The position numbers and the translations under genes are program-made. Under the pieces are notes generated by a model. That model had not been told where the DNA came from. It worked only from the letters and a program-made list of their open reading frames with translations, and made no database searches. Shown piece by piece: positions 7,118 to 40,206 of a DNA stretch of 64,000 bases (positions are counted from its first letter, which is position 1; every line of letters starts with the position of its first letter). The stretch lies in the NCBI RefSeq assembly GCF_000246855.1, contig NC_016609.1:3348001-3412000 (forward strand), in the 5' to 3' direction. The stretch is from Niastella koreensis GR20-10 (GTDB taxonomy: Bacteria; Bacteroidota; Bacteroidia; Chitinophagales; Chitinophagaceae).

Positions 7118-7138
7118 AACATCATTTGAGTGAGTATG

Positions 7139-10100
7139 TTAAAGATTTATGTTCAACCCGAATGACCAGGACTTTTGATTTGGATAGGAAAAGCCATTTT
7201 GTCCAACCGCATTGGTATTTGAAATATCCCCGCCGGGATATTTGGTCCAAACAGCCATATTATATCCTGAAACGTATGCCCGGACCGAATTCAGGTTCAG
7301 GCGATGGGCGATCTGAACCGGAATTGTATATCCTAAAGTAAGGGTCTGTAATCTGATATAATCTCCATTAAATAAAAACCGGGTAGATTGTTTTGCAGGG
7401 TTTGTGTTATTAAGAAACCTCTTGGGATTTAAGGCTTCGTCACCTGGCTTCCGCCAACGATCCAATGCACGTTTGTCCTGGTTAAGCAAGGCAAGGCTGC
7501 CGTCGTTTGTTAAATTAACCCCGGAATTATCATATACCTGGAATCCATACTGGTAATAAAAAATGGCTGAGATCTGAAAATTTTTGTAAGTAATATTATG
7601 AGTGATGGCCCCAAATCCATCCGGCTGCGGTTTCCCAACATATACCTTGTCTTTTGCAGCTGACGAATAGGTTGAGATGATATTACCTGCAGAATCCAGC
7701 CATTGGGCGCTGCCATTATCCGGATTTACTCCTGCCCAACGAAGCATGTAGAAAGAGTTGAAATTCTTACCAACCTTGTTGAGTAAGACACCTGAAGAAC
7801 TAAATTGTTGAACATTGGCTTTTGTCAGTACATTTTTATTGGTGCTCCAGTTAGCATTTATGCTCCACTGAAAATTTCGGCATTTTATAATATCTGCAAA
7901 AAGCGACAACTCAACTCCCTTGTTTTCCATATCACCCAAATTGTTTCTTTCATTCTGGAAACCGGTAGCCAGTGGCAGGTCAATGGAATATATTACATCC
8001 TTTGTCTTCTTTTTATACACGTCTGCTGTTACTCCGATCCTGTTATTCCAAAAGTGAACTTCCAAACCTGCATCCCAGTTAAAAGTTCTTTCGGGTTTTA
8101 TACCAGGATTACCGGCTGTTCCAAAAGTTGATGCAAGACCTATAGTATTTAAATAAGTATAGTTTGATAATAACTGAAAGCGTGTTGCCTGGTCTATAAC
8201 AAATGAATTACCTGCAGCGCCGATGCTTCCCCGCAATTTTAAATAACTCAACCAGGACTGGCTGCTTTTTAGAAATTTTTCTTCTGTTGCCACCCAGCCT
8301 GCACCTGTTGACCAAAAGGTCCTGAATCTATTCTGAGTTCCGAACAGGGAAGAGCCATCTGTTCTTATGCTTGCTGTTAAAAAATATTTATTATCATACC
8401 CGTAATTAGTTTGGCCAAAATAAGAAAGCAGGGTTTGTTTCAATACTAAATCACTGGGAGATTTGGTGGCAGTATTTATAACCTGTGTTTCATCAACATT
8501 TCTAAATCCTGTTCCCGTTACACTTAAATTTTTAGTGTATAGTATCTGAGCTTCCTGACCTGCCAGCACATTTATACTATGTTTGACGCCAAGAGTGCTG
8601 GTATAGTTCAGGATATTAGTAGTGATCAGGTTTGAGTTACGGGTGTTTTGCTGTTGAATACGCCCTGCTGTTGCACCGCCTGGCGTTGCGCCGGTTGTTG
8701 GATCATATAAACGTGGATCATATTTCTGATACGCGTCTAAAAACATAAAGTCGGTACCTAAGGCAGCGCTAAATTTAAAATGTTTCAGAAAGCTTACTTC
8801 CCCGTACAATTTGGTCAGTCCCCGAAAACTGGTATTACGGTTCTTATTATACTGTAGAACGGCAGCCGGATTTGCAGCAAGAAAAGGATCTGAGAAGTTT
8901 AAATAATAGTTTCCATCACTCAGGCGGTTTGGGTTCAATGGTGTATTTAAATATGCGATAGCATAATAATCTCCTCCTATTAAGGAACTAAAATCCTGAA
9001 TATTGTAAGACAAGGCGGTATTCACGCCCAGCTTTAACCAGTTAACCGGGCGGTTTTCGAAGTTGAAACGAATGGATTTGCGGTCATAACCAGTTGTTTT
9101 TACTATGCCATCCTGTTTCGTATATTCTAAATTCAGATAGAAATTAGTTTTGTCAGTTCCACCGGATACAGATAGCTCATTACTTAAGGTAGAAGCGGTT
9201 TTTGCAAAAAGCTCATCTTCCCAATTGGTAAATGGATAAAAACTGGTATCGGTACCATTAACCTGAACCGGAAATTGTTTATACAATTTAGATCTTATAG
9301 AATCCTGATTTGTATAACCGGAATTAGCGTACGTTTCAAATAAAAGATCCAGGTATTCATCCCGGTTAAGCATTTCAACTTTTCCCTTCAGTCTTTTTGC
9401 AACATCAGCCTGGCTCCGGAAACTTATTCTTGTTTTACCCGCTTTCCCCTTTTTAGTAGTAATTAAAATAACGCCATTACTGGCTTTAGCGCCATACAGG
9501 GCCACAGCAGACGCATCTTTTAACACGGAGATATTATCAATGTCTGAAGGATTTAACTGAGCCATTGGATTTACAACAGCAGTTTCTGACTGGGAAAAGT
9601 TTGATTGAGATGGATAAGCATCCTGTGTAACAGGAATACCATCAACAACAATTAACGGATTTCTTATTACAGACGGCGGGTTTACAACATTGCCAGCTGT
9701 AGATATCCCTCTTAGCACAAAATTACTCAATCCACCACCCGGCTGTCCTGTACCACTGGTCACCAATAACCCAGGAACAAGCCCCTGGAGGGATTTATCA
9801 ACCGATCTGTTAGGCAGGTTTTGAATATCCTCTCCTTTCACCACGGTTACCGCCCCGGTATTCATCCTTTTGGTTGTGGTATTATACGCTACCACCACCG
9901 CTTCATCAAGGTCACTGGCTTTCTGATCCAGATCAATTGTTATAAACCCCTGCCCATTCACTTTAATTTCCCGCGTTTCATGACTTACACTGCTTATTAT
10001 TAAAGTAGCATCCTCATCCACTTCAGCCAGCGTAAAAACCCCATCCTTGTCGGTACTGGCGCCATTGTCGGAGCCTTTGATCATGATACTGGCGCCGGCT

Positions 10101-10561
10101 ACCGGAAGGTTGTTACTGGTTACTTTACCGCTTACCGCAATGAGCTTACCCTTACCTGGGTTAGAAAAAGAAACGGCAGTCGGGATAGGTGCGGAAGACT
10201 GCTGCTGCTTTCTTTTTACAATGATCGTTTTATCCACTATAGCATAGCTCAATGGCTGATTACGGAAACAGGCGTCCAGCGCCACCTGCAGACTTACATT
10301 CTGCAGATTAAGGGTAACTTTGACAGCTCCCTGCAGCAATGTTTCATTGTAAAAAAAACGGTACCCGCTTTGCTTTTCGATGCTTTGAAAGACTTTCTGA
10401 ATGGATACATTCTCATCCCGGATCGTAATCCCGCCCCGGCCATTTTCGGCTTGTATAATGGCCGGATTAAAAATCGTTAAAAAAACAAGAAATCCTGCAA
10501 ATACCAATACAGGTTTGGCCAAAATCTGACCGCTACGGATGCACCAGGTCCGTAATTTCAT
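7139..10561 (-). CDS. SusC/RagA TonB-linked outer-membrane transporter with STN signalling domain
   Basis: The 1140-residue product has, after the signal peptide, a secretin/TonB N-terminal (STN) domain (ITIRDENVSIQKVFQSIEKQ, residues ~45-95). A carboxypeptidase-regulatory-like domain follows (~120-210), then a plug with VVDGIP and a DISVLKDASAVALYGAKAS block (~300-360), and a long beta-barrel ending in a terminal Leu. STN domains in this family contact a FecR anti-sigma factor, and a FecR gene lies directly upstream (start-to-stop gap ~120 bp with a hairpin). The pair with SusD imports a ligand too large for porins and signals its presence to the cognate sigma factor. The length is normal for the family. 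Confidence 0.95.
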   Translation of the reverse strand: MKLRTWCIRSGQILAKPVLVFAGFLVFLTIFNPAIIQAENGRGGITIRDENVSIQKVFQSIEKQSGYRFFYNETLLQGAVKVTLNLQNVSLQVALDACFRNQPLSYAIVDKTIIVKRKQQQSSAPIPTAVSFSNPGKGKLIAVSGKVTSNNLPVAGASIMIKGSDNGASTDKDGVFTLAEVDEDATLIISSVSHETREIKVNGQGFITIDLDQKASDLDEAVVVAYNTTTKRMNTGAVTVVKGEDIQNLPNRSVDKSLQGLVPGLLVTSGTGQPGGGLSNFVLRGISTAGNVVNPPSVIRNPLIVVDGIPVTQDAYPSQSNFSQSETAVVNPMAQLNPSDIDNISVLKDASAVALYGAKASNGVILITTKKGKAGKTRISFRSQADVAKRLKGKVEMLNRDEYLDLLFETYANSGYTNQDSIRSKLYKQFPVQVNGTDTSFYPFTNWEDELFAKTASTLSNELSVSGGTDKTNFYLNLEYTKQDGIVKTTGYDRKSIRFNFENRPVNWLKLGVNTALSYNIQDFSSLIGGDYYAIAYLNTPLNPNRLSDGNYYLNFSDPFLAANPAAVLQYNKNRNTSFRGLTKLYGEVSFLKHFKFSAALGTDFMFLDAYQKYDPRLYDPTTGATPGGATAGRIQQQNTRNSNLITTNILNYTSTLGVKHSINVLAGQEAQILYTKNLSVTGTGFRNVDETQVINTATKSPSDLVLKQTLLSYFGQTNYGYDNKYFLTASIRTDGSSLFGTQNRFRTFWSTGAGWVATEEKFLKSSQSWLSYLKLRGSIGAAGNSFVIDQATRFQLLSNYTYLNTIGLASTFGTAGNPGIKPERTFNWDAGLEVHFWNNRIGVTADVYKKKTKDVIYSIDLPLATGFQNERNNLGDMENKGVELSLFADIIKCRNFQWSINANWSTNKNVLTKANVQQFSSSGVLLNKVGKNFNSFYMLRWAGVNPDNGSAQWLDSAGNIISTYSSAAKDKVYVGKPQPDGFGAITHNITYKNFQISAIFYYQYGFQVYDNSGVNLTNDGSLALLNQDKRALDRWRKPGDEALNPKRFLNNTNPAKQSTRFLFNGDYIRLQTLTLGYTIPVQIAHRLNLNSVRAYVSGYNMAVWTKYPGGDISNTNAVGQNGFSYPNQKSWSFGLNINL

Positions 10562-10635
10562 ACATTTGCGTTTTAGGTTTGATAAATAGAAATGTTCTCA
10601 ACAGTTTTTATTTAAAAATGACCCAACCAAACATG

Positions 10636-10669
10636 GCCGCCCCATCTCGAACATGGGACGGCTTTTTTT
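10636..10669. terminator. Hairpin between fecR and susC
   Basis: Arms GCCGCCCCAT and ATGGGACGGC pair with one mismatch around a short loop and are followed on the plus strand by seven T. On the minus strand, the direction of transcription here, the T-run lies before the hairpin. It is therefore a poor terminator for fecR and may instead be an attenuating or processing site between fecR and susC. Confidence 0.5.
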
Positions 10670-10680
10670 ATGGCTATAGG

Positions 10681-15675: not shown

Positions 15676-16803
15676 TTACAAGCCAGCTATTATTTCTTCT
15701 GCCAGTCCGAACGAGAGGGTCATGCCGGCTCCCCCCAGCCCGTTAAAAATGTAAACCCCCGGTTCGGGCGATTCAAACAGATGACTTTCTCCATTGGTGA
15801 GTTTTGCATACACCCCATTCCAGGTGGAGGTAATGGTATTGCTTTTGAACCGGGCAAAGGTTTGTAAGTAATCAATAATCAATTGATTAATGCTTGCTTT
15901 ATCAAACGGATCGGGCGATAACCCATATTCATGGGAGTCTCCCACCGTTAGTTCGTACCGGCTATTTTGCGATACCATTACATGCACTCCCCACCGTACA
16001 TGCTCAGGCAATTCCTGTTCGTACCTGCGGCGCAATAACAGCAAAGAGGACGCTTTGGCGAAACTTTTATAATGGATCAGCGATAACCCACCGCATAACG
16101 AGGGGCCTATCTCCCATTTATCGGGTTGGGCTTCAAACCGTATCATCTGCAATTTGCACCGGGTAACGGGGATTTTCCCAAATACTTCGGGGTACAGGGT
16201 CTCAAAATCGGCGCCGCTGCATATAAAGATCAGGTCGGCGTTGTATTGTTCATTCAACCCAACGTATACGGTGTTATCGGCAATATAACTAACGCATTTG
16301 CCCCATTTGAATTCAATGCCGTGCCGCTCCTGTAAATAGAATGGCAACCAGGCAATTGCTTCCCGGGGATCCACAATGGCTTCTTCGGTACTGTACAATG
16401 CCCCCATTAACTGCTGTGGCACCACGGCGGGTGATTTTTCCAATACCTGTTCGGGGGTAAGCAGGGTTACCTGTCTTTCTAACCTGAACAGTTCATACAA
16501 CTCCTCCAACACCTGCCATTCATTTTGATTATAGGCCAGGTGCAAACTGCCGCTCTGCTCGCAATGAAAAGCGCCGGTTTTACTAATCTCCTGCCAGATG
16601 TTCCGGCTGCGAATGGCCCGCTCGTACCACTTCCCTTCCGGCTGTCCAATAGGCCAGATCATTCCAAAATTCCTTATGGATGCGCCAGTGGCCTGTTGAT
16701 TGCGCTCCAGGGTGGTTACTGCATATCCTTTTATGGCCAGCGCACGCGCCATTGCCAGTCCGGTTATCCCCGCGCCAATTACAATTGCAGTTGGTTTTGC
16801 CAT
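15676..16803 (-). CDS. FAD-dependent aminophosphonate oxidoreductase, TIGR03364/HpnW-like
   Basis: The 375-residue DAO-type flavoenzyme has the dinucleotide motif GAGITG (residues 10-15), an ATGASIRNFGMIWPIGQ block, and a C-terminal FAD contact (YIFNGLGGAGMTLSFGLAEE). These fit the TIGR03364 group. That family was proposed, from its gene neighbours, to deaminate an aminophosphonate oxidatively and pass the aldehyde to a PhnX-like hydrolase; such a hydrolase is encoded two genes upstream here. I start at the ATG at 16803 (MAKPTAIVIGAG). The longer frame from 16857 adds residues encoded by a repeat array (16821-16906) that cannot belong to the fold. It is the last gene of the phosphonate locus. 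Confidence 0.85.
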   Translation of the reverse strand: MAKPTAIVIGAGITGLAMARALAIKGYAVTTLERNQQATGASIRNFGMIWPIGQPEGKWYERAIRSRNIWQEISKTGAFHCEQSGSLHLAYNQNEWQVLEELYELFRLERQVTLLTPEQVLEKSPAVVPQQLMGALYSTEEAIVDPREAIAWLPFYLQERHGIEFKWGKCVSYIADNTVYVGLNEQYNADLIFICSGADFETLYPEVFGKIPVTRCKLQMIRFEAQPDKWEIGPSLCGGLSLIHYKSFAKASSLLLLRRRYEQELPEHVRWGVHVMVSQNSRYELTVGDSHEYGLSPDPFDKASINQLIIDYLQTFARFKSNTITSTWNGVYAKLTNGESHLFESPEPGVYIFNGLGGAGMTLSFGLAEEIIAGL

Positions 16804-16820
16804 ATAGTTAGTTTTAAAAG

Positions 16821-16906
16821 CCAAACGCTCAACGCGGAACGCCGAACGCAAAGCCATTATTTATACTGTATTTCGCATTAAGCATTAAGCGTTCTGTGTT
16901 CAGCAG
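16821..16906. repeat. Inverted array of 9-bp AACGC-type units (copy 1)
   Basis: Units such as CAAACGCTCAACGCGGAACG (16822-16841) are followed after about 25 bp by opposite-strand units (GCATTAAGCATTAAGCGTTC, 16875-16894). The second arm encodes the last residues and stop of the MFS gene (HRTLNA). Similar two-arm arrays lie at 32706-32858 and 50933-51080. Confidence 0.7.
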
Positions 16907-18170
16907 CTTTTTTGTACTTCTTAATAAAGTAGAACCAGGAAAAAAAAGTTCCCAATAACCCTGCTACAGAAAACAGGACCACGCAAGCCGGATAGAACTG
17001 CGTCCAGGTTAATTGTAACCGGAATATTTCTTTTGATAACATCACGGCCGAGCTGCCCAGGTAGCCCCAGGCATCTACCACATAGATCAAAAAACCCACA
17101 TTACCTGCTATTTTAAATGACGCTATCAGTCGTTCAAAAAAGATACAGTTAAAGGGGATGTAGCCCATATATAAACCCAGTCCGGCCAGTTGCATCCACA
17201 ACAAACCATTGAGCATTCCTGCAATAAATAAAGCTGAGGAGATACCGGCGAGCAAAAAACCTGCGATCACTGCCACGTGGGCCAGTTTTAAGGCGCGGAT
17301 GTTATTGCGGATAAACACCAGCAGGCTCATTACCAGTAAGATCACCAGGGAAATGGAAGTTTCGGTTTGGGTAAAGATGGCCGGTTTTGAACCATAGCCC
17401 AGCTCACTGAAGATGTTCACCATGAAATTGTCGCGCACATCGCGCATAATGGTCAGGAACAGGTAAGCCAGGATTACAGCCACCACGCCGCTGCCGAATT
17501 GTATAAAAAACAACCGGCGTTCTTCGCGCGTCATCGGTTGCCGTTTCGTTCTTTCCTGTACATCGCTTTCATCGGGCGGGGGCATTTTCTCCAACAAATA
17601 AAACAGCCCTATCAACGGCACTACGAAAAATAGCCCGGTTACAAAGGCCAGCCATTGTTCGGGTACCTGCCAGTCGTCACGCACCCACAAGGCCACCGAG
17701 CGGGTAAAACCGCCGGCAAATATGAAACTCACCGCCATAACTGCGCCGATAAAATCCGTTGCCCGCCGTCCTTCTACATAACTGAATACAATGCCCCACA
17801 TAAAACCCAGCATAAAGCCGTTTACAAACAGGCATAACATACCCCAGGGCGCGGGCACCAGCCCAAACACCCCTAAACTCAACCAGGCGGCGCCTACTAA
17901 CAGCGCACTTGTTTTCCAGCGGCCATAGCGCTTAAGTTCGGCTATGAACCGGATACCAAAAAATTTACTGAGCATATACCCCAGTCCCTGGCTAATGATA
18001 AGCAGGGTCTGGTATTTTATACCGGCAAATGTGAGGTCATTGAAGGTGGCTACGGTAAATGGCTTGCGGTATGCATATACCGAGGTATACGCCATAAACG
18101 CCACAACCGCCAGCACCACCGAGGTGCTGACCTGCTTTTTTGTATAAGTTGGCGAGAGTGTGATATTCAA
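16878..18170 (-). CDS. MFS-type transporter, DUF5690-like
   Basis: The 430-residue membrane protein has about twelve hydrophobic segments, an early YAYRKPFTVATF motif and a glycerol-3-phosphate-transporter-like layout (GYMLSKFFGIRF, GFMWGIVFSYVEGRRATDF). It resembles the Bacteroidota DUF5690 family. Given its place between a phosphonatase-like hydrolase and an aminophosphonate oxidase, I infer that it carries a phosphonate or organophosphate across the inner membrane. GlpT/UhpT-type carriers of the same superfamily move organophosphates, which supports the idea only indirectly. The C-terminus (EHRTLNA) is encoded by repeat DNA, so the original end may have been altered. Confidence 0.85.
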   Translation of the reverse strand: MNITLSPTYTKKQVSTSVVLAVVAFMAYTSVYAYRKPFTVATFNDLTFAGIKYQTLLIISQGLGYMLSKFFGIRFIAELKRYGRWKTSALLVGAAWLSLGVFGLVPAPWGMLCLFVNGFMLGFMWGIVFSYVEGRRATDFIGAVMAVSFIFAGGFTRSVALWVRDDWQVPEQWLAFVTGLFFVVPLIGLFYLLEKMPPPDESDVQERTKRQPMTREERRLFFIQFGSGVVAVILAYLFLTIMRDVRDNFMVNIFSELGYGSKPAIFTQTETSISLVILLVMSLLVFIRNNIRALKLAHVAVIAGFLLAGISSALFIAGMLNGLLWMQLAGLGLYMGYIPFNCIFFERLIASFKIAGNVGFLIYVVDAWGYLGSSAVMLSKEIFRLQLTWTQFYPACVVLFSVAGLLGTFFSWFYFIKKYKKAAEHRTLNA

Positions 18171-18207
18171 AATATTGAATATTGAATGTCAAATATTGAA
18201 TGTCGAA
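18163..18207. repeat. Tandem ATATTGAATGTC repeat between phosphonatase and MFS genes
   Basis: TATTGAATGTCAAATATTGA and related units fill the gap between the phosphonatase stop (18221) and the MFS start (18170), overlapping the first codons of the MFS gene slightly. No coding role is seen. Confidence 0.65.
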
Positions 18208-18220
18208 GTGAATACAGGCT

Positions 18221-18886
18221 CTATAATAGCCCTGGTAATTCAGCCAGGCTGTCGATAATGTGATCGGGCTGATATAATTCCAGTTCCTCACGGATATAAG
18301 CACCGGTAGTAACACTTATTACCAAACCACAACCGGCATTCCGGCCTTCTTCCACATCTACCCTGGTATCGCCCACTTTAGCAACGGCTTTACTATCGCT
18401 AACCTGCAATTGCTCCATGATGTGCCGGATCATATATGGCTGTGGGCGCCCCTCCGGTACTTCATCGCTGCAGATCACTGTATCAATCATGCCGGGCGTA
18501 TTCCATTGTAACCGCTTCAGAATGGCATTGGTAACAACGCGGGTAAAACCGGTATTGAGGGCGATCTTTACCCCAGCCTGTTTCAATTGCTGAAAAGTTT
18601 CTTCTGCATATGGCAGCGGTTGTAAGCCGGAATCGTTTTTATACAGCTCCAGTATGTTCCGGGTAAATGCCTTATGAATCTGTTCTATCAGGGCCTCATT
18701 ACTATCATCGGGCACCAGGATTTTTATCGCATCAATTTTTCTGAAACCCATAACATGGTTCACCGTATCGGCCGGGATATCCATATTAAATTCCCCGAAT
18801 GCATCGATAAACGCTTTGGCTACATTGCCGGTGTCCTGTACGGTTGTTCCTGCTATATCAAAAACCACTAATTGTATGTTGTTCAT
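18221..18886 (-). CDS. Phosphonatase-like HAD hydrolase, PhnX relative (TIGR03351 type)
   Basis: The 221-residue product is a HAD hydrolase. In place of the usual DxD it has DIAGTT at residues 10-15, the phosphonatase form (nucleophile D10, Ala at the second position). In the cap domain VMGFRKIDAIK places K50 four residues after Met, exactly as the Schiff-base Lys53 of Bacillus PhnX sits in MGLLK. EVPEGRPQPYM and KVGDTRVDVEEGRNAG complete the active site. The enzyme should hydrolyse the C-P bond of phosphonoacetaldehyde or a close 2-oxoethylphosphonate. TIGR03351 members typically sit beside FAD oxidases and not beside PhnW, and that is what is seen here. Confidence 0.9.
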   Translation of the reverse strand: MNNIQLVVFDIAGTTVQDTGNVAKAFIDAFGEFNMDIPADTVNHVMGFRKIDAIKILVPDDSNEALIEQIHKAFTRNILELYKNDSGLQPLPYAEETFQQLKQAGVKIALNTGFTRVVTNAILKRLQWNTPGMIDTVICSDEVPEGRPQPYMIRHIMEQLQVSDSKAVAKVGDTRVDVEEGRNAGCGLVISVTTGAYIREELELYQPDHIIDSLAELPGLL

Positions 18887-18970
18887 ATATTATTATAATG
18901 ATGCTTGAGTAATAATATTTGCCTTTCATGAAACGGCAAACACCGACGCGGCCAGTGCCGTTTTTAGCCT

Positions 18971-19023
18971 CTATCAACCCTGTCAACTTTATCAACTTGT
19001 CAACCTGTTAACTTGTCAACTCT
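18971..19023. repeat. GTTGACA-type tandem repeat at the 3' end of the HD oxygenase gene
   Basis: Seven to ten-base units read on the minus strand as GTTGACAAGTTAACAGGTTG and so on. The stop codon of the HD oxygenase gene (TGA of GAGAGTTGACA) lies inside the first unit. A 30-bp part (18971-19000) recurs at 24850-24879 in opposite orientation with one mismatch. Confidence 0.75.
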
Positions 19024-19588
19024 CCAAAAGATGCCTAACAATCATCTCCCTGTATCTATCCAACCCAGACACCTCCATCCCTTCTATCTTCGCCACATCA
19101 TCCCAGTGCCGCATTTGAATAATAAGATGAAACAGGGGGTCTTGTTCAAATGCTACGGCTTCGTCGGTTAACATGGGGCCGCCCTGATATTCCAGCGTTT
19201 TCTTACTAGCTTCTGACAATTGTTCATAATACAGAGGATCTTTCCAGGTGAGGTACCGTTTGGCTTCTACATGCGATTCAACCAGGCGGGATAATCTTTT
19301 GGAGAACCCTTTCTCCTTTAAAAAAACGGCTCCCACTTCTTCATGGTCTTTAATGCCCCAACCATCCATAGCATTGTGCTCGTGCGCGGCCTCACAAATA
19401 TGCCCGATGTCGTGGAGAAAGGCAGCCAGGATCACTTCTTCTTCATAGCCCTGCTGTTCGGCCAAACGCGCGGCCTGCACCATATGCTCCAGCTGCGTTA
19501 CCTTTTCACCGGCATATTCACTCCCGCCATATTGTTTATACAGTTGAATAATTTCATTTGCAATGTTGGTGGCCAATGTACTGTTCAT
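19016..19588 (-). CDS. PhnZ-like HD-domain mixed-valent diiron oxygenase (phosphonate C-P cleavage)
   Basis: The 190-residue product has the HD fold with ligands spaced as in PhnZ: H35, H59-D60, H63, H82, H106 and D163 (motifs LEH, LHDIGH, KDHEEVG, ESHVEAKRY, MRHWDD). Y25 and E28 in SEYAGEKV match the mobile Tyr24/Glu27 pair that in PhnZ guards the iron site and recognises the aminophosphonate. PhnZ oxidatively splits (R)-2-amino-1-hydroxyethylphosphonate into glycine and phosphate; related TmpB acts on the trimethylammonio form. No PhnY/TmpA hydroxylase gene is in the window. I start at the ATG at 19588, where homology-like sequence begins; the longer frame from 19636 reads through a palindrome. 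Confidence 0.88.
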   Translation of the reverse strand: MNSTLATNIANEIIQLYKQYGGSEYAGEKVTQLEHMVQAARLAEQQGYEEEVILAAFLHDIGHICEAAHEHNAMDGWGIKDHEEVGAVFLKEKGFSKRLSRLVESHVEAKRYLTWKDPLYYEQLSEASKKTLEYQGGPMLTDEAVAFEQDPLFHLIIQMRHWDDVAKIEGMEVSGLDRYREMIVRHLLES

Positions 19589-19607
19589 CGTGTTTCTTAT
19601 TTGTTTT

Positions 19608-19643
19608 AACTCCGGCGTCCCGAAGAGTCGGGACACCGGAGTT
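19608..19643. repeat. Near-perfect intercistronic palindrome
   Basis: AACTCCGG-C-GTCCCGA, loop AGAG, TCGGGAC-A-CCGGAGTT: 15 of 16 positions pair. It lies between the SusD-like gene and the HD oxygenase gene with no T-run on the minus strand. It may act as an mRNA processing or stability element, or be a REP-like unit. Confidence 0.75.
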
Positions 19644-19681
19644 CATCTGAGAAAATGTGAGATTTACTTCCTATGACCGTG

Positions 19682-21259
19682 TTATTTTATGATCCACATA
19701 AGACCATTGATATCGTCATTACCATTGAACTGACCTTGCAGTGCTTTTGTATAATTGGTGGTATTGCCTGCCTTTTCGTTTACCGGATATTGAAAGCGCA
19801 TGGCAATACGGCCGCTGTTACCGGTACCAGGTCCCGTGGTAAAGTTGGGCACGCCGGTACGGCGATATGTGAAATATGATTCCAGGCCCGAATGACGGAA
19901 CAGCGCCAGGTATTTCTGATTGAGTATCTGGGTTATACCGGCTGCATTATTACCGGCATAAGTAACGGCTGTTTGCGCATAATAAGCGCCGAAGTCAACA
20001 TTGATCGATACAACATCATATTTTGCATCTGAACCACCCGGACTACCGTCTTTGATGAAGTAAGCATTGAACTTACCTGATTCGGGGATACCATAAAAAG
20101 CCATGGATGTTTTTATCCCTGCTTTATAATAATCTTCTGCAGTTCCCAGGGCGCCTGAAGCGGCCCAGCCCCTGGCTATACCCTCTGCAATATTGAAACA
20201 CATTTCAGCAAACCCGATCTGGATCGAATTCTCGCCCAAATAGGTTTGATAATAATGCCGGCGATTGATGAGTGAATACTGTCCGCCATTGGCTTTGATA
20301 TACATAGCGCCGAGATCTTCACCCGGACTGGCGCCCAGGTAGGCATCGTAACTGGTGGTGCTTTTTCCCGCTGTTACCAGGGCGGCGGCAGGTTCTGCTG
20401 TTACAAATACCCGTGGGTCCTGTAACTGGGTTAACAAACCTATGTAGGTGCCGGAAGTGTTATAGCGTGATCCATCGAACCCAAACGTGCCTGGGTTCAT
20501 CGGATAGTCGTTGGAAGGATGCACGTATACAAACTGCAGGTTATCGGTAGCATCTTCCATAATGGGATACTTCGTCTTATTGCCAACAATGGCGGCAAAC
20601 TGCTGTTTAACGTTTATGTCTGCATCATCAGTTCTTTTACTTAAATGGATCAGCAAACGGATGCGGTAGGTATTTACCAGCTTCTGCCATTTAGAAAGAT
20701 CGTTGCCGTAATAAAAATCCCGCTCCAGCGTGTTGTCTTTGGCGGTTATCAGTTGGGCCAGCTCATTATTGGCGCTGTCTAACCACAACAGTGATTGCTG
20801 GAAGATCTTTTTCTGGCTGTCATAATCCGGGGTAAGATTGGCCCTGCCCTGTAAGGCGCTTGTCATTGGCAGATCGCCCATGGCAAGACTCATTTTTGTA
20901 AAGAAATAAGCTTTGAAGAATTTAGCCAGCGTAGTATAAGGATTCAATGAAGCGGCTCCGCCTTTGATGGCTTCCTCTTCCATTTTAGTCACATTCTTCA
21001 ACGTGGCGTAATAATCATCGCCCGATCCAAAATCGTAGCGGTTATTGCCATAATAATCATAATTACAGCAATAATACTGGCACCAGCGTTCTTTCATGTT
21101 ATTAGGCGCCTCATACATATTGAACTCAATACCGTTCAACAGCAGCGAAGGTTGCACCGAAGACGGTTTGTTCTCATTTTTGTTCATGTCGTTAAACGAC
21201 TTCTTGCAAGCAGTAAAAGCCAGTGCAAGAAACAAGGGGATATATTGAATACGTTTCAT
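19682..21259 (-). CDS. SusD-like_2 family outer-membrane lipoprotein
   Basis: Starting at the ATG at 21259 gives a lipoprotein signal (MKRIQYIPLFLALAFTACKK) and a 525-residue product; the longer frame begins in repeat DNA. The sequence (KNENKPSSVQPSLLLNGIEF, PLFRHSGLESYFTYRRTGVP-type ending, here ALFRHSGLESYFTYRR) fits the SusD-like_2 group, which is longer than classical SusD and has no conserved RRRELCFEG block. It should bind the substrate of the SusC encoded upstream. As the following genes are phosphonate-degrading enzymes, I infer that the ligand is a phosphonate-bearing lipid headgroup, glycan or peptide. Confidence 0.92.
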   Translation of the reverse strand: MKRIQYIPLFLALAFTACKKSFNDMNKNENKPSSVQPSLLLNGIEFNMYEAPNNMKERWCQYYCCNYDYYGNNRYDFGSGDDYYATLKNVTKMEEEAIKGGAASLNPYTTLAKFFKAYFFTKMSLAMGDLPMTSALQGRANLTPDYDSQKKIFQQSLLWLDSANNELAQLITAKDNTLERDFYYGNDLSKWQKLVNTYRIRLLIHLSKRTDDADINVKQQFAAIVGNKTKYPIMEDATDNLQFVYVHPSNDYPMNPGTFGFDGSRYNTSGTYIGLLTQLQDPRVFVTAEPAAALVTAGKSTTSYDAYLGASPGEDLGAMYIKANGGQYSLINRRHYYQTYLGENSIQIGFAEMCFNIAEGIARGWAASGALGTAEDYYKAGIKTSMAFYGIPESGKFNAYFIKDGSPGGSDAKYDVVSINVDFGAYYAQTAVTYAGNNAAGITQILNQKYLALFRHSGLESYFTYRRTGVPNFTTGPGTGNSGRIAMRFQYPVNEKAGNTTNYTKALQGQFNGNDDINGLMWIIK

Positions 21260-21288
21260 TGTAATAGTTGTTTTTGTCAAGAAAGGAT

Positions 21289-21342
21289 CCGTTCCAGGTT
21301 TCAGGTTGCAGGACTCCATGAAACCTGTAACCTGTAACACCT
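21289..21342. repeat. CAGGTTACAGGTT repeat hairpin between susC and susD
   Basis: CCAGGTTTCAGGTTGCAGG is followed by GAAACCTGTAACCTGTAAC, so the segment folds into a long imperfect hairpin in the transcript, directly after the SusC stop. It may reduce expression of the downstream genes relative to susC or set mRNA stability. Confidence 0.65.
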
Positions 21343-24300
21343 AAAATGCCAGGTTCAGGTTCAATCCATAACGGCGGGTTGTAGGCGATTGCAAGCCTGA
21401 AGCCCCGGTGGCATAATTGTACTGGTCCAGGTCTACGTCTTTAAACCGTTTGTCTTTATAGAAATAAAGAAGATTCCGGCCGATGAGTGAAATACTGGCC
21501 CGGTCGATAAACGATTTCTTTAACAGGCTTGCCGGCAGATCGTAAGTGAGCGTTACTTCGCGCAACTTGGCAAAGGTTTTACTCATGAGGTTACTCTCAT
21601 CAACACCATAGTACTTACTTACATAATCCTGCACATGCGTAGTTGTTTTATTATCGGCAAACTGCAGGTCTTTGTAGTTGATGATGGTGCCATTATTATC
21701 ATAGTTGATAGGCGTACCATTCGATACAACCACTCCATTTCCTACATATACACCCGGGAAGGTTTTATCACCGGCATGATCGTTATCTGCCTTTCTGGCC
21801 ACACCCAATGCGCCCTGTACGGTTTCTATATTGCGGCCGCCACGCATGGTTTTATTATGGATATAATCGGTGGTAACGCCACCTACGCTTCCATCGAACT
21901 GAAAGCCCAGGGTAAATCCTTTATAGCCAACTTTATTATAAATGCTCCATTGGTAATCGGCATTCAGGTAACCCAGGAATTGACTAACCGGGTTTTGCAG
22001 AGGCTTACCGGCATCGTCATGAATGATCCTGCCATCTGCTGTTTTAACAAACGCAGAGGTGAATAATTTATCTACGCGATCACCATTCTTGAAAAAGGTT
22101 TGATAGGTAGTTTGTCCGGGCGGCAACTCCTTGTATTTATCCTGGAAGGTTGACCAGTTAACTGTTACATCCCAGAAAAGGCCATTGTGCATTTTGAGCG
22201 GCGAACCATTCAGCGATAATTCATACCCCGTTTTTTGCGTTTTTAACGCATTCAGGTAATAATAGTTGTAACCGCTGGCGGTTGAGATGGGATTAGCCAA
22301 AATACGCGGACCATCTACATACTGAAAGGCAGTAGCGCTTAATCCCAGCCTGTTTTGCAACAGTTTAATATCGAAGCCTTCTTCATAATTCACCCGGTTG
22401 AATGTTTTTATGTTCGGGTCGTACAGGTTATTGGTATAAGCCGCAGCCGACTGGTTATTATATGGCTTGTTCATTGAATACACAGCTGCCAGGGAATAAT
22501 CGGGCCCGCCGTAAGGTGACTGGTAATTATTACCATAACCAAGCACATAATCGTACAGTGAATTACCCGAAGGTGTTGCCCCAAAGGCCGAGATGGTTGA
22601 AAATGGCGTCATACCGATAGTAGGCGAAGTTGCATCGCCATGCACCACTGCAAAGGAACCTCTTGCTTTCAGGTATGAGATCACTGATGGCAGTTGCACA
22701 TAATCAGAAATAACGGTTGCTGCGGAAACCGCCGGATAAAAATAACTGTTGTGCGCTTTTGGCAATGCTGATGATTTGTCAAGGCGGCCGGTTACAGACA
22801 CTGTAGCATATTTATCAAACGCCGCATCCAGCGAATAATAAGCGCTGTATACCCGCATATCCGATGAAAAACTGCTGCTTTGTACCGGGTTCAGGGTATT
22901 GCTGAACGTATATACACCCGGTACCGTCATATAATCGGTAGAGGTAAAGGTGGAGTTGTAGGTAAAAGAGCGAACGTTACCACCTGCCAGGCCCGACAGG
23001 TTCACGAACTTTTTTACATTGTAATTATAAGCCAGTAACAGTTCGCTATTATTTTCAAACAGGTTGCGATGATCTTCGCGATAATCGCCCAATCCGCCTT
23101 CCCTGCCATATGGGTGGGCTGAAAATGGCATACTTTCCGTTCTTAATAAACCATACGTAGTAGCCTGTGTACGGGCTGTTACATTCAGGTTGTTATTGAT
23201 CTTGAAATTGGCAGACACATAACCGAACAGATCGTTCTTGTAATGACCGCGCAACCACTCTTTTACCATGAACCAGGGGTTATGATAACGTTGGTATTCA
23301 GCAAAAACAGATTGAATGCCAATTTTAGAAGGGTTCCAGATGGCTTTAAGGTCTGGTGATTCCACATCCCAGTCTGCACCCGTCCAGATACCCACGTTAT
23401 AGATCAAACTGTTTGGCCCATAGTCCACATCGGGGAAGTTGGGCGTGTATTGCCTGTTATAATTTACATTGGCCTCGATCTTTAATCTTGGATTAACATT
23501 CACCCCCGCATACACGTTAAAGTTGGTAATATTCAATCCCATATTGGGGATAATACTTTTCTGGTATGAATGGGACATCGAGAACCGCATGTTGTAATTT
23601 TCACCGGAAGCGCTCAATGCAACGTTATTGGTTGACTGAAAACCGGTTTGCAAAAAACGGCCGAGATTGTTTACTCCACGGGCAATCCACGGTGTAGGTT
23701 TTATATGGCCTGTATAATCCTGGTTGTGGCCGCCGGGATAAGTAGTAACATATGTTTGAGTGGGGTCATATGCGCCGTCATACTGCGGGATCAGCTGGCC
23801 TTCAAAACGGGGACCCCATACATCATAGTCGTTGTCGTTTTTACCGCCGCCTTTACCATTACCAAAGGCGTAGAGGGCATTCTCGCCTGGTCCGTATTCA
23901 TCCTGTACACGGGGAAAAGCCAGGAAGCCTTTATCGATGGAGTTGGTTGAATTGAACTCCACAGAGAAGCCTTTTTTTGCTTTAGTGCCTTTTTTCATGG
24001 TAATGAGAATGGCGCCATACTGTGCCCGGCTGCCATAGAGCGCCGCTGCGGCAGGTCCCTTTAAAACGGTATACGTTTCAATGTCGTCCGGACTGATATT
24101 CCAGGTATCGGTACTAATGGGAATACCATCCACTACATACAAATTAATTTCATTACCCCGTAATAATACAGTTGGCTTACGTAACAATTCAGCGGAAGCT
24201 CCTACCGATAACCCGGCTACTTTACCGGTTAACCCGGTGATCGGGTTCTGGTCACGGGCTTTTACCAGGATATCGCCTTTTACTTCCTGCACGGCATAAC

Positions 24301-24664
24301 CAAGTTTCTTGGTTTCTTTCTTTACCCCAAGTGCAGTCACCACCACTTCGCTCAAATCTTTTGTAGATTCACTGAGCGTAATCGTCAGGTTGTCTTCGCC
24401 GGTAATTTTGATCTGTTTGGTATCAAAACCAACGCCGCTTACAATAAGCATATCGCCTTCTTTTACCTGGATGGTAAAGGCGCCTGCTTCGTTACTGGAT
24501 GTTCCGGTACCGGATCCTTTTATTTGCACAGAGGCGCCGGCAACTGGTGCATTATCCTTTGCGGATACCACTTTTCCGGTTATAGATCGCTGTGCCTGTA
24601 CTAAAAAAGGAATTACCAGTAGCCACAGGAATATTGTGGCCCTTTTAAAGGTGTGTACTCCCAT
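21341..24664 (-). CDS. SusC/RagA TonB-linked transporter of the phosphonate locus
   Basis: The 1107-residue product has a signal peptide, a carboxypeptidase-regulatory-like domain (residues ~25-110, RSITGKVVSAKDNAPVAGAS), a plug (~115-225, VVDGIPIS and TVLKGPAAAALYGSRAQYGA) and a beta-barrel ending NLNLAF. It has no STN domain, so it should not signal to a FecR protein. That fits the presence of an XRE-cupin regulator and the absence of sigma/anti-sigma genes nearby. With the SusD-like lipoprotein it probably imports a phosphonate-containing molecule, on context alone. The long segment with many Tyr, Gly and Asn is usual for the barrel of this family. Confidence 0.95.
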   Translation of the reverse strand: MGVHTFKRATIFLWLLVIPFLVQAQRSITGKVVSAKDNAPVAGASVQIKGSGTGTSSNEAGAFTIQVKEGDMLIVSGVGFDTKQIKITGEDNLTITLSESTKDLSEVVVTALGVKKETKKLGYAVQEVKGDILVKARDQNPITGLTGKVAGLSVGASAELLRKPTVLLRGNEINLYVVDGIPISTDTWNISPDDIETYTVLKGPAAAALYGSRAQYGAILITMKKGTKAKKGFSVEFNSTNSIDKGFLAFPRVQDEYGPGENALYAFGNGKGGGKNDNDYDVWGPRFEGQLIPQYDGAYDPTQTYVTTYPGGHNQDYTGHIKPTPWIARGVNNLGRFLQTGFQSTNNVALSASGENYNMRFSMSHSYQKSIIPNMGLNITNFNVYAGVNVNPRLKIEANVNYNRQYTPNFPDVDYGPNSLIYNVGIWTGADWDVESPDLKAIWNPSKIGIQSVFAEYQRYHNPWFMVKEWLRGHYKNDLFGYVSANFKINNNLNVTARTQATTYGLLRTESMPFSAHPYGREGGLGDYREDHRNLFENNSELLLAYNYNVKKFVNLSGLAGGNVRSFTYNSTFTSTDYMTVPGVYTFSNTLNPVQSSSFSSDMRVYSAYYSLDAAFDKYATVSVTGRLDKSSALPKAHNSYFYPAVSAATVISDYVQLPSVISYLKARGSFAVVHGDATSPTIGMTPFSTISAFGATPSGNSLYDYVLGYGNNYQSPYGGPDYSLAAVYSMNKPYNNQSAAAYTNNLYDPNIKTFNRVNYEEGFDIKLLQNRLGLSATAFQYVDGPRILANPISTASGYNYYYLNALKTQKTGYELSLNGSPLKMHNGLFWDVTVNWSTFQDKYKELPPGQTTYQTFFKNGDRVDKLFTSAFVKTADGRIIHDDAGKPLQNPVSQFLGYLNADYQWSIYNKVGYKGFTLGFQFDGSVGGVTTDYIHNKTMRGGRNIETVQGALGVARKADNDHAGDKTFPGVYVGNGVVVSNGTPINYDNNGTIINYKDLQFADNKTTTHVQDYVSKYYGVDESNLMSKTFAKLREVTLTYDLPASLLKKSFIDRASISLIGRNLLYFYKDKRFKDVDLDQYNYATGASGLQSPTTRRYGLNLNLAF

Positions 24665-24784
24665 AAATCAGTTTTTTTGGATGACTAGTGCAATATTTCT
24701 TTGCCAGCGAAAGTAGAAGGGTTCTATAAAGGCAGTGTTAGCGCTATTTTATGAAAACATTAATTGTATACATATACTAAACTA

Positions 24785-24810
24785 ATGTATAGTATTGATA
24801 AATACTACAT
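24785..24810. promoter_or_regulatory. Candidate operator upstream of the phosphonate susC
   Basis: An interrupted palindrome ATGTATAGTATT...AATACTACAT lies 121 bp upstream of the SusC start in an AT-rich stretch with further TATAC-type symmetry. It could be the binding site of the XRE-cupin regulator encoded next to it. This rests on symmetry and position only. Confidence 0.35.
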
Positions 24811-24819
24811 ATAAACAAG

Positions 24820-24881
24820 AGTTGACCAGTTGACGGGTTGACAAGGAATACAAGTTGATAGAGTTGACAGGGTTGATAGTG
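24820..24881. repeat. GTTGACA-type tandem repeat upstream of susC
   Basis: This is the second copy of the repeat at 18971-19023, in opposite orientation (shared 30 bp at 24850-24879, one mismatch). It lies between the XRE-cupin gene and susC. Confidence 0.75.
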
Positions 24882-24931
24882 TTAGAACACAAAAGTATCT
24901 TCCTCCTTCCGGAGGGGGACGGGGGCGGCTG

Positions 24932-25501
24932 TTAAAAAAAATAAACTACCAACAGCGATGCATCCGAATTACCAATATTCCGTAACCTATGATGGGCGCG
25001 GCCATCAAAGAATAAGGTATCGCCGGCTTCCAGGGTAAATGTTTCTTTTTCTATCTCATACTCGACCCTGCCTTTCAATACATGTTTACATTCAAAGGCA
25101 TCGGTGCGGATCATTTGTTTTCTTCCGGCGCCTTTTTTTAATTCAAGCAATACAAAATCAACTGCCTGGGTAATGAGGCTTTTGGTCAATATACGTTTAT
25201 AGGAAAAACCTCTTACCGGTTCTTTTTCAAAGGCCTTTTCTTCGCCCTTGCGTATTATTAATACATGTCCATTGGTGAAATGATCATGCATATCATCAAA
25301 GAAGGTTTTTATGTCTTCATTCAACCCGTGTATTAAATTAAACAGTACGGGTAAAGAGGGAACAGTACGGTTGTTTTCGATCTGGGAGATCAATCCCTTG
25401 GTAACCCCTGCCCTGTTGGCCAGTTCTTCGAGCGTAATGTTTTTATCGTTTCGTTTCGATTTTATATGCTGACCGATCAGGAGAATTAAATCTTCGTGCA
25501 T
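24932..25501 (-). CDS. XRE-family regulator with C-terminal cupin domain
   Basis: The 189-residue product has an HTH_3 domain (residues ~8-65, ITLEELANRAGVTKGLISQI) and a cupin_2 domain (~110-189, HVLKGRVEYEIEKETFTLEA, then DGRAHHRLRNIGN). Cupin-XRE regulators such as PuuR sense small amino or alcohol metabolites and often repress catabolic genes beside them. It is the first gene, in transcription direction, of the phosphonate locus, 267 bp before susC, so it probably controls it. The inducer may be an aminophosphonate or a product such as glycine. The gap to susC carries a palindrome (24785-24810) that could be its operator. Confidence 0.9.
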   Translation of the reverse strand: MHEDLILLIGQHIKSKRNDKNITLEELANRAGVTKGLISQIENNRTVPSLPVLFNLIHGLNEDIKTFFDDMHDHFTNGHVLIIRKGEEKAFEKEPVRGFSYKRILTKSLITQAVDFVLLELKKGAGRKQMIRTDAFECKHVLKGRVEYEIEKETFTLEAGDTLFFDGRAHHRLRNIGNSDASLLVVYFF

Positions 25502-25691: not shown

Positions 25692-26300
25692 ATGTATTTT
25701 TTCGACTGGCTCGACCATATTGACAAGATTGCTTTTACTTTCATTCACAAAGACATGAGCACCCGCTGGCTCGATTACCTCATGTTGTTGCTGCGCAATC
25801 AATACACCTGGATTCCCCTGTACGTTTTCATGCTTTACTGGACATATAAGCTTGACCGGCCTACCGGTTTAAAGTTTATTTGTTTAACACTGCTATGTTT
25901 TGCCATTACTGATTTTACCAGTAGTAGCATTCTTAAATATCATTTTGAACGGTTACGTCCCTGTTACGATGAGGACATGACCACTGTAGTCCGCGGTATT
26001 ATTGGTTGTGGTGGAAAATATTCCTTCCCCTCTTCGCATGCTTCCAACCATTTTGGGTTGGCTACATTCTGGTACTTTACCATCTTTCATATTAAGCAAC
26101 AAAAATGGCACTGGCTGTGGTTTTGGGCATTTGCCATCTGCTATGCCCAGGTATATGTTGGTAAACATTTTCCGTTTGATATAGTTGGCGGCGCGGTACT
26201 GGGTATTTTTACCGGTTTGTGTATGTTTAAATTATTTGAAGCCTGGGTAAAACGCGATTACAATAAGTATTTAAAAAATCCTTCCTTAAGTTTGCCTTAG
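25692..26300 (+). CDS. PAP2-family membrane phosphatase
   Basis: The 202-residue product has several membrane helices and the three phosphatase motifs: KYHFERLRP (~residue 78), PSSHASN (~115) and the Q-YVGKHFPFDIVGG block (~150). PAP2 enzymes remove phosphate from lipids such as undecaprenyl pyrophosphate or lipid A. The following gene is a GT39-type glycosyltransferase 15 bp downstream, so the two are probably one transcript and may modify lipid A or a lipid-linked glycan. It diverges from the XRE-cupin gene. Confidence 0.9.
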   Translation: MYFFDWLDHIDKIAFTFIHKDMSTRWLDYLMLLLRNQYTWIPLYVFMLYWTYKLDRPTGLKFICLTLLCFAITDFTSSSILKYHFERLRPCYDEDMTTVVRGIIGCGGKYSFPSSHASNHFGLATFWYFTIFHIKQQKWHWLWFWAFAICYAQVYVGKHFPFDIVGGAVLGIFTGLCMFKLFEAWVKRDYNKYLKNPSLSLP

Positions 26301-29548: not shown

Positions 29549-30211
29549 TTGTCAAAAAGCGTGAAGCAATTTATCCGAATAATAAAAGCTGATCCTGGGT
29601 ACTGGGGTGTTTTGTTGATCGTTTTCACCATAAGCGGAATCTGTCTTTCTGTTTTTTCTGCCAGGCAGATTTTTTTCAGTTTGAATTCAATCCATACGCT
29701 ATACCTGGATACATTTTTTCAGAATTACACTTTATTGGGCGATGGAGTGGTTTCCATCGCCATTTTTTTAATGCTGTTACTGGCAGAAAGATGGTCTTTA
29801 GCCGTGCAGGTGCTCACTGCTTACCTGTTTTCAGGTATAGTTTCGCAGATCCTGAAAAAGGCATTTCATGCGCCCCGGCCGCACGCAATTATTTCAAATG
29901 CCGAGTACCCGCATTTTATTGAGGGTATTACCAATACGGGAATGAACAGTTTTCCTTCGGGTCACACGACTTCTGTTTTTGCCCTTGCCACCATACTTGC
30001 GTTGAACGCAACCGATAAACGTTTTTCTATCATTTACATCATCACCGCTATTATTACCGGGTATTCACGCATCTACCTGGGCCAGCATTTCCTTGCCGAT
30101 GTTACAGCCGGCGCTTTAATTGGTACTTTTTCGGGGCTGCTGGTATACTGGTATTTGCGCCAGGTGAAAATTGAATGGGTGAGCGTGAGAAATGAGCCCA
30201 CTTTGATCTAA
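29549..30211 (+). CDS. PAP2-family membrane phosphatase (second copy)
   Basis: The 220-residue product has five to six helices and the motifs KKAFHAPRP (~residue 108), SFPSGHTTSVFALAT (~130) and SRIYLGQHFLADVTAG (~175). It is a lipid phosphatase such as an undecaprenyl-pyrophosphate or lipid A phosphatase, and is distinct from the PAP2 at 25692-26300, being of the more classical PSGH type. It begins a three-gene run with a flippase-like protein and another GT39 enzyme; gaps are 16 bp and a 20-bp overlap. The start at 29549 opens with TTG; a later start is possible. Confidence 0.85.
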   Translation: MSKSVKQFIRIIKADPGYWGVLLIVFTISGICLSVFSARQIFFSLNSIHTLYLDTFFQNYTLLGDGVVSIAIFLMLLLAERWSLAVQVLTAYLFSGIVSQILKKAFHAPRPHAIISNAEYPHFIEGITNTGMNSFPSGHTTSVFALATILALNATDKRFSIIYIITAIITGYSRIYLGQHFLADVTAGALIGTFSGLLVYWYLRQVKIEWVSVRNEPTLI

Positions 30212-38751: not shown

Positions 38752-38761
38752 ATTATACAAC

Positions 38762-40180: not shown

Positions 40181-40190
40181 TAAATTGTTA

Positions 40191-40206
40191 GCTACTCCCT
40201 AGTAGC
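40191..40206. terminator. Small hairpin shared by convergent genes
   Basis: GCTACT, loop CCCT, AGTAGC lies between the susD stop (40180) and the 40199-40534 gene and includes that gene's stop codon. It could limit read-through from both sides, although neither side has a clear T-run. Confidence 0.4.

Follow-up and report, generated by a model that had tools for sequence, protein, structure and literature searches.

Niastella koreensis GR20-10 carries, in the 64,000-nt stretch analysed here (contig NC_016609.1, positions 3,348,001 to 3,412,000; hereafter the window, part of a single 9.03-Mb contig), a cluster of seven minus-strand genes encoding an XRE-cupin regulator, a SusC-type transporter and a SusD-like lipoprotein (together SusCD), a Phn-HD (PhnZ-type) oxygenase, a PhnX-like hydrolase, a DUF5690 membrane protein and a TIGR03364-type FAD oxidase. 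By the conservation counts given below this arrangement lies far beyond chance; the locus is real and conserved, and very probably devoted to aminophosphonates imported via SusCD. We consider it fairly likely that the cluster serves to take up esterified aminophosphonates through SusCD and to use them by way of two branches, each of which would cleave a carbon-phosphorus (C-P) bond. All of the proposed steps are drawn from family membership and genomic context.

Conservation of SusCD beside the Phn-HD gene

Phn-HD was sought in 394 Chitinophagaceae genomes and matched in 112 at E 1e-3, with 104 of these at 1e-20 or better, and the regions around the gene were read for all 103 strong genomes besides the window's own (a set of 100 and a further three). 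The counts refer to the 81 loci, out of 99, with at least 6.5 kb of upstream sequence, and an operon is a same-strand run with gaps of up to 500 nt. The SusC-SusD pair lies in one such run with Phn-HD in 74 of the 81 loci. Across 954 kb of operon SusD was labelled 74 times, against none in 573 kb of flank; SusC-type receptors, sought with two profiles, were found 76 and 7 times, respectively. The 81 operons include 68 with DUF5690, 62 with the FAD oxidase, 56 with the PhnX-like gene and 26 with an XRE-cupin-family regulator. Locus L069, left out of the count, also displays the full gene set. An earlier contig scan with one sequence as query had returned three loci only.

Beyond Chitinophagaceae, strong Phn-HD matches were found in ten genomes of a 395-genome Bacteroidota sample (L162–L171), and a SusC-SusD pair is present in the region read in ten of ten. 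According to our own profiles these loci hold the oxidase in eight cases, the PhnX-like gene and DUF5690 in seven each, and the regulator and an esterase-type gene in six each. Gene order is frequently altered, and the recurrence of the same set in differing order argues for functional coupling. Thus SusCD is kept beside the enzymes in related genomes, a test on which the original prediction, made from the letters of the window, had staked its reading.

Searches anchored on SusD lead to the same loci. Among 147 genomes, 42 have a SusD match of at least 300 bits; 29 of these adjoin Phn-HD and six of the other 13 lie in C-P loci that lack Phn-HD (L210, L212, L214, L217, L218 and L220), so that the orthologue sits within a C-P locus in 35 of the 42. 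Of the remaining seven loci, L209 and L215 have an esterase-type gene alone, L211 and L213 are broken off by the end of a contig, and L216, L219 and L221 show no C-P genes and no recognised esterase in view. At L215, which has a glycerophosphodiesterase (GDPD), and at L216 a PhoR/PhoB-like pair adjoins the orthologous SusCD and C-P genes are not in view; these are perhaps phosphodiester-only versions. The closest SusD paralogue in the window's own genome scores 99 bits. The 78 untruncated SusDs from the 100 regions score at least 400 bits in 58 cases, 200–400 in three and below 200 in 17. To judge by these scores the last group belongs to other SusD lineages, which would mean that SusCD pairs were recruited more than once. 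One locus of the same genus (L139) has a partial Phn-HD gene (profile positions 3–80 of 179) and keeps SusCD and the regulator with the downstream enzymes not seen; it seems to be decaying.

The seven genes of the window

The open reading frames (ORFs) were assigned to families by Pfam and NCBIfam profile scans against curated cut-offs (Table 1). All seven ORFs that the original prediction had placed together on the minus strand were found at the positions given beforehand, and six of its family names, those of SusC, SusD-like_2, DUF5690, the TIGR03364 oxidase, Phn-HD and the XRE-cupin protein, were borne out by scores above the cut-offs. The intergenic gaps along 15676–25501 are 20, 50, 129, 45, 0 and 267 nt, with the SusD-family lipoprotein following SusC directly (0 nt). 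The FAD oxidase probably starts at the internal MAKPTAIV, and the SusD-like protein likely starts at the internal MKRIQYIP, which would give the lipobox LAFTAC, judged by eye from the sequence.

Table 1 Genes of the predicted aminophosphonate locus, in window coordinates
Product	Coordinates	Strand	Family evidence
TIGR03364 (PbfD-type) FAD-dependent aminophosphonate oxidase (predicted)	15676..16857	-	TIGR03364 406 bits, cut-off 285
DUF5690 membrane protein, predicted inner-membrane carrier (MFS-like, weak)	16878..18170	-	PF18943 519 bits, cut-off 25
PhnX-like HAD hydrolase (phosphonatase-like)	18221..18886	-	TIGR03351 203.5 bits, below cut-off 218.9
Phn-HD (PhnZ-type) HD-domain oxygenase	19016..19636	-	TIGR03276 217.6 bits, cut-off 214.6
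SusD-like surface lipoprotein	19682..21340	-	PF12771 (SusD-like_2) 200 bits, cut-off 27
SusC-type TonB-dependent transporter	21341..24664	-	TIGR04056 409 bits, cut-off 368
XRE-cupin transcription regulator	24932..25501	-	HTH_3 and Cupin_2 above cut-off

Predicted enzymes of C-P bond cleavage

The PhnX-like protein has TIGR03351 as its top-scoring family even though it misses that cut-off, and it reaches 136.5 bits against the model of true phosphonatase, TIGR01422, whose cut-off is 220. It matches the solved PhnX structure 1rql (E 8e-18). In particular, K50 aligns with the lysine of the LKID motif of 1rql, which we take to form the Schiff base in PhnX, and is unchanged in 18 of 18 aligned homologues. 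The proposal that K50 occupies the Schiff-base position is therefore upheld; the PhnX-like identity itself stands in part, with the best family and the conserved lysine in its favour and both curated cut-offs missed. The Phn-HD protein matches PhnZ (4mlm, E 3e-42) and is the sole match in the window's genome. In an alignment of 113 sequences the HD aspartate is never missing, and the tyrosine, the glutamate and the first histidine each occur in all but one sequence (112), in agreement with the predicted Tyr-Glu pair and HD ligands; we assume that these residues have the metal-ligand and Tyr-Glu roles of the family.

The oxidase belongs to the family with which PbfD1 is annotated, TIGR03364 (PMC10590968; this and the other papers are cited from the portions of their text available). 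PbfD enzymes convert N-methyl-2-aminoethylphosphonate and 2-aminoethylphosphonate (AEP) to phosphonoacetaldehyde, and in those portions the non-phosphonate analogues tested were not oxidised (PMC10590968). A profile search of the window's genome found neither PhnW over cut-off nor PhnJ, so the oxidase would supply phosphonoacetaldehyde, as has been proposed for PbfD2 (PMC10590968).

The claim of phosphonate utilisation is strengthened by four loci (L095, L104, L108 and L129) that have no TIGR03364 oxidase or PhnX-like gene and carry PhnA, aldehyde dehydrogenase, a different FAD oxidase and PhnW-type genes instead. The products of L104 score above curated cut-offs for PhnA (492 bits, cut-off 408), phosphonoacetaldehyde dehydrogenase (666, 636) and PhnW (496, 401); the assignments at the other three come from our own profiles only. 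L104 also has SusCD, an alkaline-phosphatase-type (AP-type) esterase and DUF5690, and in the regions in view L108 is without DUF5690 and L129 without the AP-type esterase. Judged by gene families, L104 combines the known AEP pathway with the same importer, and the PhnW/PhnY/PhnA loci point to AEP.

A second C-P branch is suggested by the hydroxylated compound. R-1-hydroxy-AEP is handled poorly by PhnW-PhnX, and phnZ homologues occur occasionally within phnWX or phnWAY clusters (PMC8154272); the unsuitability of this compound for PhnW-PhnX would explain a separate Phn-HD branch. R-1-hydroxy-AEP has been isolated from Acanthamoeba polysaccharides, and a 1973 title cited in the same paper places AEP and hydroxy-AEP together in an amoebal plasma-membrane phosphonoglycan (PMC8154272). 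One branch per compound would fit a ligand that holds both.

Several loci vary this enzyme set. In L096, L099 and L103 there is a second PhnX-like gene, with an alcohol dehydrogenase gene between the two; the L096 dehydrogenase is closest to TIGR03366 (HpnZ_proposed, a proposed phosphonate-associated family), below cut-off. In L113, PhnW-like and aldehyde-dehydrogenase-like genes (strong, own profiles) lie upstream of Phn-HD, a TonB receptor and two PF04185-type genes; the oxidase and DUF5690 are on the opposite strand, and the locus may hold two AEP routes side by side. Among the loci with a TIGR03364 oxidase, PhnA-like and phosphonoacetaldehyde-dehydrogenase-like genes accompany it in L184, L195 and L198, where SusCD was not labelled; L195 and L198 additionally have a PhnW-like gene.

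Esterase-type genes in the operons of relatives

The window's operon lacks genes that most relatives carry between SusD and Phn-HD. An esterase-type (phosphoesterase-type) gene occurs in 68 of the 81 operons, and it lies between SusD and Phn-HD in 56 of the 73 loci that have an upstream SusD. The commonest protein of this slot (58 of 114 proteins) is AP-type, about 360 residues long, with a signal-peptide-like start. The one member tested matches Sulfatase and Phosphodiest barely above cut-off and has no NCBIfam match. All 25 aligned members share the residues D32, S109, D237, H241, D283, H284 and H297, presumably the site pattern of an active hydrolase of the alkaline-phosphatase superfamily. 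Also found in the slot, and each identified from one tested member, are a glycerophosphodiesterase and a PF04185 phosphoesterase that bears a beta-propeller, together with proteins of tyrosine-phosphatase-like, EEP and lactamase-like type, the last narrowly under its Pfam cut-off. Across the 81 operons the AP-type occurs alone in 30, PF04185 alone in 12, both in 10, lactamase-like with AP-type in 10, GDPD with an AP- or PF04185-type in three, EEP alone in two, tyrosine-phosphatase-like with AP-type in one and none in 13. Loci of other families add PhoD, calcineurin-like and PHP proteins. An idea that unrelated esterase folds substitute for each other in this slot was dropped, since the AP- and PF04185-types mostly occur alone or together and the others are mainly additions.

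A crude, partly discriminating scan flagged signal peptides in 73 of 80 AP-type, 31 of 36 PF04185, 12 of 12 lactamase-like, six of eight GDPD and two of two EEP proteins; on comparison proteins it flagged eight of 109 Phn-HD, three of 88 PhnX-like and one of 23 PhoB-like, as well as 83 of 93 FAD oxidases, the last probably through the N-terminal Rossmann strand. The esterase-type genes are thus predicted to be mostly exported. Hydrolases of several families recurring in one slot are best explained by a need for ester cleavage, and the phosphoesterase-type genes suggest an esterified ligand. A large or bound ligand had been predicted from SusCD, and this claim gains from the relatives and is held back by the esterase-less operon of the window itself. 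The AP-type profile found no PDB chain at E 0.01, and an AlphaFold model of one sequence (L010) had a mean confidence score (pLDDT) of 37, too poor for a fold search.

DUF5690 and regulation

The DUF5690 gene is the sole copy found in the window's genome. In the 395-genome sample DUF5690 is present in 29 of 32 genomes with TIGR03364 over cut-off versus 13 of 363 others, counts that include related, non-independent genomes, and all 17 genomes with a strong Phn-HD hold it somewhere. Among 14 named control genomes it was found in one, that of Caulobacter vibrioides. MFS_1 matched one of 20 members (E 0.0025). Comparison with UhpT gave a weak match (E 0.0003, probability 39, 66 columns); GlpT did not reach significance (probability 1), and LacY had a probability of 0.1. 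We do not claim a GlpT-like antiporter. The DUF5690 profile found no PDB chain at E 1, and an AlphaFold model from four sequences (pLDDT 47) was too poor for a fold search. In the open-licence literature searched, which may miss subscription work, DUF5690 or PF18943 is named nowhere.

A PhoR/PhoB-like pair lies within the region read in 17 of the 81 loci. At L058, PhoU is over cut-off and the regulator is closest to PhoB, with the PhoR and PhoB models under their cut-offs. The pair may reflect phosphorus control or inherited gene order.

Proposed pathway and alternative explanations

In the pathway that we favour, SusC and SusD would bind a phosphonate attached to a larger molecule, for example a phosphonolipid head group or a piece of phosphonoglycan, and take it in. 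In the periplasm of most relatives the aminophosphonate would then be released by an exported, operon-encoded phosphoesterase; the window organism would either leave ester cleavage to an enzyme encoded elsewhere or have no need of it. DUF5690 would carry the aminophosphonate across the inner membrane. In one branch the PbfD-type oxidase would convert AEP or N-methyl-AEP to phosphonoacetaldehyde, which the PhnX-like hydrolase would cleave to acetaldehyde and phosphate, and in the other the Phn-HD oxygenase would cleave 1-hydroxy-AEP to glycine and phosphate. The XRE-cupin protein would sense a pathway compound and govern the operon. A more specific version, which we put forward tentatively as possible though on balance doubtful, is a dedicated phosphonoglycan or phosphonolipid system in which SusCD would import fragments of eukaryotic or bacterial surface polymers bearing both AEP and 1-hydroxy-AEP, an exported esterase would free the two, and each cytoplasmic branch would release phosphate from one.

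Several observations weigh against a SusCD locus for esterified aminophosphonates. The PhnX-like protein falls below both curated cut-offs, and its gene is present in just 56 of the 81 operons. No SusCD pair is found in seven of the 81: at L059 and L113 the run extends to the edge of the region read (SusD lying at the edge in the former, none in view in the latter), L099 and L121 have no pair in the operon, and L133, L137 and L140 are lone Phn-HD genes. The regions of L162 and L163 lack the oxidase, the PhnX-like gene and DUF5690, with oxidase and PhnX-like gene lying on a separate contig in both genomes (L201, L202). Among 19 TIGR03364 loci without linked Phn-HD, one of them slightly below cut-off (G609), only four have SusCD (L185, L188, L189 and L192), and in L186, L187, L190 and L193 a different TonB receptor adjoins DUF5690 (receptor domains identified by Pfam in the last three); thus SusCD tracks the Phn-HD type of locus, not all oxidase loci. 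On the side of the ester, the window's operon has no esterase, the AP-type profile found no match in the window's genome (a search run without a positive control), and a recognised esterase is absent from 13 of the 81 operons. The lactamase-like and GDPD types always accompany an AP- or PF04185-type and look more like additions than replacements, and the two commonest esterase families may, we assume, share one fold. The evidence for DUF5690 as a carrier is weak.

The esterase-less operons leave room for a system that imports free small aminophosphonates (AEP and hydroxy-AEP), SusCD being the usual Bacteroidota outer-membrane route for scarce solutes and the esterases of relatives serving other organophosphates. 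It is also favoured by the four oxidase loci in which DUF5690 adjoins one TonB receptor of a non-SusC kind. Against it stand the frequency and position of the esterase-type genes (68 of 81 operons; 56 of 73 in the slot), and zwitterions of about 125 Da are generally believed to pass through porins; we regard it as unlikely, but the most serious competitor. That the enzymes act on phosphate esters, such as ethanolamine-phosphate lipids, with PhnX-like and Phn-HD as mere family labels, appears improbable. The sub-threshold PhnX-like score and the frequent esterase-type genes are in keeping with it, as is the view that the commonest Flavobacterium PUS locus serves phosphodiesters (PMC8115612), but four loci carry PhnW/PhnY/PhnA-type genes instead of the oxidase and the PhnX-like gene (over curated cut-offs in L104 only) and, as far as the available portions of that paper go, the non-phosphonate analogues tested were not oxidised by PbfD enzymes (PMC10590968). 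Least probable is that SusCD neighbours the enzymes by chance or takes up some glycan with which they have nothing to do. Two other SusC/SusD-like pairs are indeed labelled in the window, and three of the 13 SusD orthologues unlinked to Phn-HD (L216, L219, L221) have no C-P genes or recognised esterase; yet in 74 of 81 loci the pair shares the operon and the flanks show no SusD, 35 of the 42 genomes with the orthologous SusD have it within a C-P locus, and SusCD is kept through rearrangement in other families. This explanation is largely refuted.

Comparison with known systems

A close likeness to the proposed aminophosphonate locus is found in the PUS loci (PusCD) of Flavobacterium, in which SusCD-type importers likewise adjoin phosphoesterases (PMC8115612). 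The original prediction knew of no well-studied example, and this holds with a qualification: the same 2020 paper mentions, in one phrase, SusCDs of phosphate starvation beside phosphonate-degrading enzymes, and its main text contains no word starting with Phn or aminoethyl. Induction by phosphate depletion was shown for PUS loci (PMC8115612), whereas the present locus is known from its genes alone. Unlike what is described of PUS in the portions available (PMC8115612), it is a defined set with Phn-HD, a PbfD-type oxidase and DUF5690 across several families. The PbfD2-PhnX route for AEP and N-methyl-AEP in M. fucicola also pairs a PbfD oxidase with a phosphonatase and lacks PhnW (PMC10590968). 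Its phosphonatase differs from the PhnX-like kind seen here, the oxidases described are mainly proteobacterial with some PVC members, in contrast to the present Bacteroidota locus (PMC10590968), and the main text has no word starting with TonB, whereas the present locus has SusCD.

A PhnZ-type oxygenase is shared with the PhnY*-PhnZ oxidative AEP pathway and with PhnZ-bearing phnWX and phnWAY clusters, phnZ being present in 15 of 1,186 and 24 of 75 of these, respectively (PMC8154272). The present locus adds SusCD and, in relatives, an esterase; no PhnY*-type hydroxylase is encoded by the seven genes of the cluster, to which the search for PhnY* was confined. Phosphonate uptake has been described mainly for inner-membrane systems. 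The same is said of aminophosphonate uptake (PMC8316502), where AepXVW, AepP and AepSTU are, like the present locus, dedicated systems; in the portions available they are described without an outer-membrane part, outer membrane and TonB not being mentioned, whereas the present locus combines SusCD with DUF5690. AepP is a GlpT-related major-facilitator permease (PMC8316502), unlike DUF5690, whose relationship to GlpT is not detectable.

Classical polysaccharide utilisation loci, such as those for starch and chitin, comprise a regulator, SusC, SusD, an exported hydrolase, a carrier and intracellular catabolism. The present locus shares that layout but differs in that its seven genes, like the recurrent extra proteins tested, include no glycoside hydrolase. 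If the dedicated phosphonoglycan or phosphonolipid version is true, the locus would be the phosphorus counterpart of such loci and link soil Bacteroidota to amoebal or predatory-bacterial biomass. Under the favoured pathway, bound phosphonates (lipids and glycans) in soil and water would be a nutrient within reach of an abundant phylum, through a little-described route of the phosphorus cycle held in one compact cluster in many Bacteroidota. The known enzymes act on free AEP and small relatives, which leaves a gap towards the known phosphonolipids and phosphonoglycans; mineralisers of the polymer-bound compounds would become testable, and functions would follow for DUF5690 and for an esterase of the alkaline-phosphatase superfamily.

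Neighbouring genes

The two further SusC/SusD-like pairs of the window lie at 5681–10680 and 35500–40198 (own profiles, ends approximate), with no tie to the locus seen. PAP2-type genes stand beside the locus on the plus strand at 25692–26300 (Pfam and own profile) and 29549–30211 (own profile), and a PAP2-type gene lies within the same-strand run in nine of the 81 relatives.

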